From contig NZ_JAESVA010000003.1 of the NCBI RefSeq assembly GCF_020621385.1, positions 682,001 through 746,000 on the forward strand: a stretch of DNA of 64,000 nucleotides, given 5' to 3'. Each line of letters begins with the position of its first letter. The first letter of the stretch is position 1. The translations under genes were made by a program, and so were the position numbers. Under the pieces are notes generated by a model. That model saw only the letters and a program-made list of their open reading frames with translations. It ran no database searches and was not told the origin of the DNA. This stretch comes from Acidisoma cellulosilyticum (lineage in GTDB: Bacteria > Pseudomonadota > Alphaproteobacteria > Acetobacterales > Acetobacteraceae). Positions 13,366-15,605 of the stretch are shown piece after piece.

Positions 13366-14265
13366 TCAAGGGCCGGCGGATGGGGTCACCCCAGCGTTAT
13401 TCGCCTTCCGCTCGGCTTCCGCCTTAAGGCGGCGCTCGGTCCAGGCATCCATCAGCTGGATGATCGTCGCGGCCGTCTCCTCGATCGACCGGCGGCTGAC
13501 GTCGATCACCGGCCAGCCACGGCTGGTGCAAAGGCGCTTGGCCCATAACAGCTCGGCCGTCACGGCTTCCAGATCGGTGTAATCGCCCCGGTCCGGCGCC
13601 TGGCCGACCGCGTTATGGGTGCCCAGCATGCGCAGCCGATGGCGGCGGATATCGATCAGCGATTGCGGGTCGAGCGTCAGGCCAACCACGGGGCAATTCG
13701 GCTTGTCCAGCGATTCCGGCACAGCAATGCCCGGCACCAGCGGAATATTGCCGGCCTTGATGCCGCGATTGGCGAGATAGAAGGAGGTCGGCGTTTTGGA
13801 GGAGCGCGAGACGCCGACCAGAATGACGTCGGCCTCGGCGATCCCCGCCTGGGCCTGCCCATCATCATGCGCCAGGACATAATGGATGGCGTCGATGCGC
13901 CGGAAATAGTCGGCGTCCAGAATATATTGCCGCCCCGGCCGGGCGGAGGCCTGCTCGCCCAAATGGTCCTGCAGCATGGTCATGACCTGATCCAGCACAT
14001 GCACGATCGGCACGCCTAACCGGTCGCAGGCCATATCCAATTCGCTGCGCAAGGCGCGATCGACCAGGCTGGACAGAACCGGACCCGGCTCCGCCTGCAA
14101 TCCGTCCAGCACCCGATGCAACTGAAACCGCGTCCGGATCAGGCTCCAGCGATGCGGGACGATCGTCAGATGCTCGAACTGTACGGTCGTCGCGCGGGCG
14201 ATGGCGTTCAGCGTTTCGCCGGTCGCGTCCGAGACAAGATGGAGGTTCAATCGATGCGTGGACAT
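13366..14265 (-). CDS. ppsR: Pyruvate,phosphate dikinase / PEP synthase regulatory protein (DUF299)
   Basis: This 299-aa bifunctional kinase/pyrophosphorylase inactivates and reactivates PEP synthase or pyruvate,phosphate dikinase by ADP-dependent phosphorylation and Pi-dependent dephosphorylation. The family start [18 protein letters not shown] and the P-loop [18 protein letters not shown] (about 153-170) are clear. The ATG at 14265 ([10 protein letters not shown]) fits the family start; the in-frame ATG 42 bp upstream would extend into the origin-like region. It diverges from hemE. The homologue (RP001) flanks the replication origin beside hemE in Caulobacter and Rickettsia, which supports the oriC call next door. 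Confidence 0.93.
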
Positions 14266-14573
14266 CTCGTGATCATAACGGGATAAGTGGGGATAAGGGA
14301 GAGCCATCCGGCTTGGGCCGGTGCCGAGCGGGGATAGATGCCGTTTCCAGCGTACATGTGAAGATGTGTACGACCCTAACCGATCTGTAACTGAGTCGTC
14401 ACAGAGTCTTGAGAAGAATCAGCAGTCTAATCACCCCCAAGCCTGTGGAAAACTCTGGGGAGAAAATCTGGGCGAACCGGGTACCCCGCTTTTCCACCCC
14501 CCATCTACCACCCCATCCTTCTTAAAATTCTATACTGACGTAGTAGGGTGTCAGGGCTTCTTTGGGGATAACC
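14266..14573. other. oriC: Candidate chromosomal replication origin (oriC)
   Basis: The 308-bp gap between divergent ppsR and hemE has no ORF. DnaA-box-like 9-mers are seen: TTATCCCCA on the minus strand at 14288-14296 and again at 14563-14571 (one mismatch from TTATCCACA), TTTTCCACA on the minus strand at 14444-14452 (one mismatch), and TTTTCCACC on the plus strand at 14490-14498 (two mismatches). An AT-rich stretch (CTTCTTAAAATTCTATACT, 14519-14537) could be an unwinding element. The hemE/RP001 gap is the established origin position in Caulobacter crescentus and Rickettsia prowazekii. It must also hold both divergent promoters. Confidence 0.65.
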
Positions 14574-15605
14574 GTGAAAAGACTTTTGGACGCATTTCTG
14601 GGGAAAACCACCTGGCCCCCACCTATTTGGCTCATGCGACAGGCCGGAAGATACCTCCCGGAGTATCGCGAACTCCGGTCACAAACTACTGATTTCGTTA
14701 GTTTTTGTCTGGACCCGACACGCGCCTCGACAGCCACGCTCCAGCCGATCCGCCGTTTCGGCATGGACGGCGCAATTCTCTTCAGCGACATCCTGATCCT
14801 GCCCTGGGCTATGGGCCGGGACCTGCGTTTCGATGAAGGCCATGGCCCGCGCCTGCCGCCGCTCCGGACTGTGGATGAAATGCGAAACCTGCAGGTTCAG
14901 GGATTCCTGGAGAAGGTGGAGCCGGTGCTGGAAACCATCCGCCTCACCCGTTCTCGGCTGGCAGCCGACCACCCTGAGACAGCCCTGATCGGCTTCGTTG
15001 GGGCACCCTTTACGGTCGCCTGCTATATGGTCGAGGGCGGCGGCTCGAAGGATTTCGCAGAGACGCGGAAGATGGCCGCCACCGATCCGGACCTGTTCGA
15101 CGCACTCATCGAGCGGATCACCGAGGCCAGCATCGCCTATCTGCTGGCCCAGATCGCGGCCGGCGCCGAAGCCGTCATGCTGTTCGACAGCTGGGCCGGC
15201 CTGCTGTCGCCGTCAGGTTTCGAGAAACATGTCATCCAGCCGACAGCGCGGATCGTGGCTGGCATCAGGCAGCATCACCCTACCATTCCGATCATCGGCT
15301 TTCCGCGTCTCGCCGGCACCATGGTCGCAGCCTATGCGGAAAAGACAGGGGTCAATACCGTGGGGGTCGATACGGCGGCGGACCTCAATCTTGTCAGGCA
15401 GTTGGTGCCGCAGACGGTCGGGCTGCAGGGCAACCTTGATCCCTTTGCTCTTCTAAGCGGGGGTCAGGTGATGGAACAGGAGGCGCGTGCTATCCTAGAC
15501 GCCATGAAGGGTCGCCCCTTCGTTTTCAATCTTGGCCATGGCGTCATGCCGCCGACGCCCCCCGATCATGTGGCAGCCTTGGTCGATTTTATTCGAGGTC
15601 AGTGA
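14574..15605 (+). CDS. hemE: Uroporphyrinogen decarboxylase
   Basis: This 343-aa enzyme converts uroporphyrinogen III to coproporphyrinogen III in heme synthesis. The N-terminal signature PIWLMRQAGRYLPEYRELR (about 17-35) is diagnostic, and the catalytic Asp lies in GAILFSDILILPWA. GFVGAPFTVACYMVEGGGSKDF follows near 140. GTG at 14574 is chosen: GGGG lies 6 nt upstream and the product then starts MKRLLDAFLG. Its stop abuts the GTG of hemH, so the two are an operon. A DnaA-box-like 9-mer lies over the ribosome-binding site, which could couple expression to replication; that is inference. Confidence 0.96.
   Translation: MKRLLDAFLGKTTWPPPIWLMRQAGRYLPEYRELRSQTTDFVSFCLDPTRASTATLQPIRRFGMDGAILFSDILILPWAMGRDLRFDEGHGPRLPPLRTVDEMRNLQVQGFLEKVEPVLETIRLTRSRLAADHPETALIGFVGAPFTVACYMVEGGGSKDFAETRKMAATDPDLFDALIERITEASIAYLLAQIAAGAEAVMLFDSWAGLLSPSGFEKHVIQPTARIVAGIRQHHPTIPIIGFPRLAGTMVAAYAEKTGVNTVGVDTAADLNLVRQLVPQTVGLQGNLDPFALLSGGQVMEQEARAILDAMKGRPFVFNLGHGVMPPTPPDHVAALVDFIRGQ

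Follow-up and report, generated by a model that had tools for sequence, protein, structure and literature searches.

A probable chromosomal replication origin beside hemE in Acidisoma, and a putative period-3 unwinding module in Alphaproteobacteria

The gap between ppsR and hemE

The window analysed here is a stretch of 64 kb on contig C3 of the genome of an Acidisoma host (Acetobacteraceae), an assembly of 6.0 Mb in 59 contigs. An earlier sequence-only reading had reported an ORF-free gap at 14266-14573, and these limits are exact: ppsR starts at 14265 on the minus strand and hemE begins with a GTG at 14574 on the plus strand. The gene names are those assigned in that reading; the ppsR of the window is 94% identical to its match in Acidisoma silvae. 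All four DnaA-box-like 9-mers described for the gap are present (two copies of TTATCCCCA, one of TTTTCCACA and one of TTTTCCACC), and the AT-rich stretch noted there is real, with 41.7% GC at 14520-14579 vs about 61-62% around it. Three further box-like sites had been overlooked: TTTTCCCCA at 14599-14607, CTATCCCCG at 14329-14337 and TTCTCCCCA at 14456-14464. The features of the locus are as follows.

13366..14265, minus strand: ppsR (COG1806/RP001-type), left neighbour, an ORF
14266..14573: oriC gap between ppsR and hemE, 308 bp
14278..14286, minus strand: box-like TTATCCCGT, aligning with the family box TTATCCCCG that adjoins ppsR
14288..14296, minus strand: DnaA box TTATCCCCA, a motif match
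14329..14337, minus strand: box CTATCCCCG, aligning with the best conserved box of the family, TTATCCCCG
14393, 14404 and 14416 (14393..14420, 28 bp): three GANTC sites
14417..14429, plus strand: weak IHF-like site AATCAGCAGTCTA, one mismatch to consensus
14444..14452, minus strand: DnaA box TTTTCCACA, family counterpart TTGTCCACA
14456..14464, minus strand: weak box TTCTCCCCA, in a family-type array
14479..14486: palindrome GGGTACCC; the first-box slot GGTACCCCG is 14480-14488
14490..14498, plus strand: second box TTTTCCACC, family counterpart TTATCCACA, facing the unwinding tract
14505..14519, plus strand: C-phased triplets CTA CCA CCC CAT CCT, a degenerate copy of the period-3 tract
14518..14560, plus strand: probable unwinding element, rich in AT, where family sequences have few G on the same strand
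14563..14571, minus strand: second copy of TTATCCCCA, a DnaA box confined to the genus and covering the hemE ribosome-binding site
14574..15605, plus strand: hemE, constant neighbour of the core, an ORF
14599..14607, minus strand: DnaA-box-like TTTTCCCCA within hemE, a motif match

The boxes are concentrated beyond expectation. TTATCCCCA is expected 0.21 times in 64 kb, and two copies were reached by 2 of 100 shuffles. Seven sites in the window fit the pattern TTWTNCMCA; the gap holds three of these, and one more (TTTTCCCCA) falls within hemE. With a box matrix built from the family gaps, the window's own gap among them, the four top sites of the 64 kb fall at the gap, one of these inside hemE, and the densest 350-bp stretch of the window begins at 14250-14275. 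By the same matrix the box beside the tract is weak in the window genome; this box, TTTTCCACC, is the weakest of the four originally listed and lies one base off the family position of TTATCCACA. The DnaA protein of the host carries the box-reading signature NRDHTTV. The dnaA gene itself lies on contig C1 near 268 kb (L001 1045-2526), a long way from the origin.

Conservation in Acetobacteraceae and known hemE-type origins

We inspected 110 ppsR loci of the family, 82 of which have a divergent hemE across a gap of mostly 292-345 bp; at the other 28 hemE is not nearby, some lying at contig ends and others apparently reflecting rearrangement. Dropping 12 exact duplicates and two long gaps left 68 distinct gaps, seven of which were left out of the alignment (A1). 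DnaA boxes are enriched 20-fold or more in the 68 gaps: TTATCCCCR occurs 82 times vs 0.7 in shuffled sequence, TTATCCACA 24 times vs 0.1, and TTWTNCMCR 125 times vs 5.7. Their orientation is conserved as well. Of the 146 boxes in the family gaps, the ppsR half contains 95, with 93 in minus-strand orientation; a group of 17 lies 60-99 bp before hemE, with 16 in plus-strand orientation.

Other origin-associated motifs gave mixed results. Scanned with the IHF consensus, 7 of the 68 gaps hold an IHF-like motif vs 0.7 shuffled, the window site being one mismatch away. Counts of TTAA, taken alone rather than as the CtrA pattern TTAA-N7-TTAA, do not exceed shuffles (108 vs 108.3), so that TTAA alone gives no sign of CtrA sites in Acetobacteraceae gaps. 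GANTC occurs 298 times in the gaps vs 174.5 shuffled, each site being counted on both strands. In the window, three GANTC sites fall within the 28 bp of 14393-14420, and over the window as a whole GANTC is depleted (67 vs 301 shuffled); the cluster and the depletion together suggest CcrM-type methylation control.

To describe the right half of the gap we used R1, a model of 61 rows made from sequence alone. In the window genome R1 has one match at 3.2e-13, the next standing at 1.2. Among 150 family genomes, including some that had contributed training rows, R1 finds the core in 140 and has no match in the other 10. We fetched 20 family genomes, picked for a lost or moved ppsR or for a good assembly: the core precedes hemE in all 20, with ppsR inside the stretch in six. 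The 14 in which the core sits with hemE and ppsR is not in the stretch are L185-L193, L195, L196, L199, L202 and L203. At 30 further family loci hemE adjoins the core in 29, the remaining one being cut by a contig end. Conversely, R1 found no core at 27 of 30 ppsR loci that have no nearby hemE or have a long gap, some of these at contig ends. What has been conserved is the association of the core with hemE, not with ppsR, and R1 offers a way of locating oriC in draft genomes, including those in which ppsR has been lost. Loci with ppsR and neither hemE nor the core nearby include L082, L085, L086, L090, L104 and others, Rhodopila-named and similar.

The earlier reading had stated that the same gene pair flanks known origins, and this is borne out: hemE and COG1806 are described at the origins of Caulobacter crescentus (Cori) and Rickettsia (PMC1914354). 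According to that description, the Acidisoma gap shares with them the flanking genes, the boxes, an AT-rich stretch and a possible IHF site. The origins of Wolbachia and Ehrlichia are described there as adjoining hemE without COG1806. In this respect they resemble the Acetobacteraceae, where hemE likewise remains the neighbour when ppsR/COG1806 is elsewhere; compared by description, the second neighbour differs between the two groups. The boxes also differ, again as far as the descriptions go: those of Acetobacteraceae are of the TTATCCCCR type, whereas Caulobacter is reported with G-boxes (a T to G change) and W-boxes (PMC4468827, PMC10797057). A further difference is the palindromic first-box slot of Acetobacteraceae, unlike Cori as described. 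Our text search of the literature returned no dedicated origin study for Acetobacteraceae, and an origin type described from a few model genera is now placed in this family.

Skew, parS and the position of the origin

The sequence-only reading had claimed that the gap is the oriC of the organism and had named GC skew as a check, a minimum elsewhere counting against the claim. We ran this check by sampling, and the outcome favours the gap, the skew being weak and computed from samples. On the window's own contig the skew is negative in 18 of 18 samples of 10 kb left of the window (pooled -0.036); inside the window it is -0.011 left of the gap and +0.016 right of it. The change is not sharp, since the 10 kb directly right of the gap is still at -0.010, and the minimum inside the window lies near 22-26 kb. 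For a congener, G003, we sampled 40 stretches (600 kb) of a 4.54-Mb contig, took the contig as circular and fitted two states. The fit puts the origin at 4.08-4.10 Mb and the terminus at 1.62-1.74 Mb, with the gap at 4.171 Mb; the best fit is thus 70-90 kb from the gap, and positions within 10% of it span 3.88-4.20 Mb. In G029, a family genome with no ppsR match, the core is at 1,874,517; the skew is -0.016 in the sample at 1.80 Mb and has turned to +0.071 in the one at 1.91 Mb.

Another check on the location is the position of parS. The exact 14-mer GTTTCACGTGAAAC lies on the gap's contig, on the ppsR side and 60-99 kb off, in all five Acidisoma genomes; because of synteny, these five cases are not independent. 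The window genome has a lone exact copy at G000:C3:602623-602636, about 94 kb from the gap, and in G003 the 14-mer is the sole match genome-wide with up to one mismatch allowed. A search pattern tried earlier, TGTTCCACGTGGAACA, returned only an unrelated match and was discarded; it overlooks sites with other outer bases, and GTTYCACGTGRAAC was used instead. At zero mismatch this degenerate pattern gives one match per genome on the gap's contig in the five Acidisoma genomes, plus a second in G002 (GTTTCACGTGGAAC) on another contig, C45. One-mismatch matches are scattered, and none was counted as support.

The gap thus has what is found at hemE-type origins: an intergenic position between hemE and ppsR, a conserved and above-chance box cluster, an AT-rich stretch and a minus-to-plus skew. 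With the skew of its own contig, the parS site, the footprint, a single strong match genome-wide and a relative in which the core occurs without ppsR, the original claim is well backed, and we put the probability that 14266-14573 is the oriC of the Acidisoma host at about 95%.

The competing account is that the conserved gap is only a divergent promoter for ppsR and hemE, that DnaA regulates transcription there and that replication starts elsewhere. DnaA boxes are described in promoters too (PMC4468827), and one box of the window does lie over the hemE ribosome-binding site. However, the core stays at hemE with no ppsR in the stretch in 14 of the 20 fetched genomes, the skew flips at the core both in the window's own contig and in G029, parS is nearby, and the genome contains just one strong match to R1; we give this account hardly any credence. 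The box over the ribosome-binding site, TTATCCCCA at 14563-14571, overlaps it as had been reported, and from this overlap the sequence-only reading had suggested that heme synthesis and initiation might be linked. As a general feature the link is not supported. Scanning the 68 distinct gaps in minus-strand orientation with up to two mismatches, we found a box on the hemE start in four, all Acidisoma: the window genome and L004 have it exactly, L005 and L006 in degenerate form. On that strand the box was found neither in L007, the fifth Acidisoma gap, nor in the other 63. A regulatory role of the box within Acidisoma is possible. The more specific proposal, that DnaA bound there couples heme synthesis to initiation in the genus, draws on the two exact and two degenerate copies and is set against the gaps in which the minus-strand scan found none; we regard it as improbable.

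The box pair, the period-3 tract and DnaA

Read toward hemE, the core of the family starts with a 9-mer slot, against which lies TTATCCACA with a G directly behind it; a short GC spacer then leads into a stretch nearly free of G, at first rich in C and later in T, and hemE comes last. The first-box slot holds GTACC, which gives the palindrome, in 55 of the 68 gaps; in 11 it is box-like (NNNTCCMC), and several of these 11 end in the same CCCCG. Abutting pairs of the form TCCMC-N4-TCC number 72 vs 3.9 by chance. Pairs with one or three extra bases (28 and 32 vs about 4) are above chance and below the abutting pairs. We also tried, on eight genomes, the idea that the palindrome GGGGTACCCC is avoided outside oriC: it occurs only at oriC in two genomes and nowhere in the other six, the reversed control occurring 1-10 times per genome. 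The idea was dropped because GTAC is simply rare and GGTACC and GGGTACCC are not consistently below Markov expectation.

At the level of the class, R1 matched 60 of 289 genomes, three of them Acetobacteraceae. Among the out-of-family loci, one of which comes from a training-row genome, hemE adjoins the match in 25 of 27. Read by eye, these loci often carry a C-type box (NAATCCCCG) in the slot and show a clear tract, as in CAACTACAACTACAACC. For a motif-blind sample we took 60 regions upstream of hemE, one per alphaproteobacterial family outside Acetobacteraceae, drawn in match order and with a complete N-terminus from 119 out-of-family genomes with a hemE match. The letter rule applied to them asks for a box and, beginning 3-12 nt behind it, for 'AC' repeated with period 3 in at least 3 of 5 places; it is post hoc, having been set after the R1-selected loci, and 13 of the 60 regions come from those genomes. 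On the hemE-facing strand 30 of the 60 regions match the rule vs 1.6 shuffled (maximum 5), and on the other strand none does. In the hold-out of 47 regions the count is 21 vs 1.2 shuffled. Two of the 30 tract matches, L272 and L282, look spurious at the place found. In Acetobacteraceae alone the rule is weaker, at 14 of 68 vs 0.5 shuffled.

The periodicity is also seen without a letter rule. Lag-3 base identity behind box pairs picked blind to the tract gives z values of 4.7 (the 60 regions), 3.2 (the 47) and 5.6 (the 68 family gaps). When the single best A-type box per region was used, a tract lay behind only part of the 60, and this was not counted. As for the letters, C[ACT]A x3 is found in 22 of the 60 regions vs 0.2 shuffled, and 5 regions vs 0.8 have the canonical form [CT]T[AT] x3 behind a box; the tract units are CAC (41), TAC (34), AAC (32) and GAC (4). 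Two control patterns are also above shuffles, A[ACT]C x3 in 11 of 60 vs 0.17 and CC[AT] x3 in 4 of 60 vs 0.07, which makes the period of 3 firmer than the exact letters. The box pair, spacer and period-3 tract are thus present in family and class and degenerate in the window, whose own tract is read by way of its relatives. In a literature search with subscription journals and supplements outside its scope, we recognised no paper describing the tract.

The closest known system is the basal unwinding system (BUS) of B. subtilis, boxes 6/7 plus DnaA-trios, which as described has the same tandem same-direction boxes, short GC-rich spacer and period-3 tract running into the unwinding element (PMC8287927, PMC10721633). 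It differs in the unit: the B. subtilis trio is given as 3'-GAT-5', while the alphaproteobacterial triplet would be 3'-GNT-5' with the middle base free. The BUS search rule is described as three or more middle-adenine triplets, (.A.){3,} (PMC8287927); 4 of the 30 class tracts keep three consecutive middle-A triplets in tract phase. We regard the core, with its two abutting boxes, GC spacer and period-3 tract, as a putative unwinding module that is conserved across Alphaproteobacteria; the part concerned with unwinding appears to represent a variant of the B. subtilis system found throughout the class. The comparison suggests that the opening element of class origins follows a looser three-letter code than that of Bacillus. 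In other words, the hemE-type origin is of an already known kind, and on a comparative basis its unwinding code looks like a new variation.

Both parts of the core admit other explanations. The GGTACC palindrome might be the site of an unknown dimeric origin-binding regulator instead of a remodelled DnaA box: the dyad is kept in many lineages, and GGTACC is found in 49 of the 68 gaps vs 4.4 shuffled. Yet the 11 box-like slots, with their recurring CCCCG end, and the C-type box that usually fills the slot in class loci (read by eye) argue for an origin as a box; no regulator was identified, and GGTACC is not specially avoided elsewhere in the sampled sequence. We think a separate regulator unlikely. 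The tract, for its part, could be a coded leader or an extended hemE N-terminus and not a single-strand code for DnaA, period 3 being typical of coding sequence. Over the 30 tracts, however, the three phases relative to the hemE frame are taken by 9, 13 and 8, and 21 have an in-frame stop before hemE; moreover, the tract keeps to 3-12 nt after a box, on one strand in 30 of 60 regions and on the other in none. A coding origin was rejected on the phase spread and the in-frame stops, and we rate it as very improbable.

With the core taken as an unwinding module, opening might proceed as follows. DnaA would bind the minus-strand box array from ppsR to mid-gap, possibly bent by IHF, and also the plus-strand box at 14490-14498 that adjoins the palindromic slot. 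From there it would polymerise rightward onto one strand of the G-poor, C-phased triplet tract, and we infer that the polymer opens the AT-rich stretch before hemE.

The DnaA protein shows a clade-specific difference at a position relevant to the tract. In B. subtilis, Asn187 is described as contacting the middle adenine of the trio; changing that adenine to T or G impairs opening, and changing it to C does not (PMC10721633). In an alignment on 8btg, the residue of Acidisoma DnaA that corresponds to Asn187 is Tyr, and Ile190, Ile193 and Glu228 are unchanged. In 30 class genomes, all tract-positive, the residue is Tyr in 27, Phe in two and His in one, never Asn, which sets alphaproteobacterial DnaA apart from that of the BUS. 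Asn is not the general state elsewhere either, because, of the 30 loci that scored best in 120 phylum genomes, the 29 from Pseudomonadota outside the class have Thr (12), Ala (9) or Gln (8), and E. coli DnaA has Gln. Tyr is present as well in G192, a class genome whose region (L273) does not satisfy the letter rule. Tyr/Phe/His is accordingly a marker of the class; it fits with the looser triplet, which is likewise specific to the class, but the association between the two is a correlation within one clade.

One model that would join these observations is that, in Alphaproteobacteria, DnaA on a C-type/A-type box pair reads 3'-GNT-5', only G and T mattering, by means of Tyr, Phe or His in place of the Asn187 amide, and that the palindrome GGGGTACCCC of Acetobacteraceae arose afterwards by remodelling of the first box of the pair. 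We offer it tentatively and somewhat short of an even bet, because two control triplet patterns are above chance and the residue was compared in tract-positive genomes. In the account of Pelliciari et al., trios without a middle adenine were only suspected (PMC8287927); the present comparison gives them a concrete form beside a clade-specific DnaA residue, and makes DnaA recognition of single-stranded origin DNA testable by residue and base swaps. At the Arg202 place Acidisoma has Lys, which is uninformative because 29 of 30 in the phylum sample share it.
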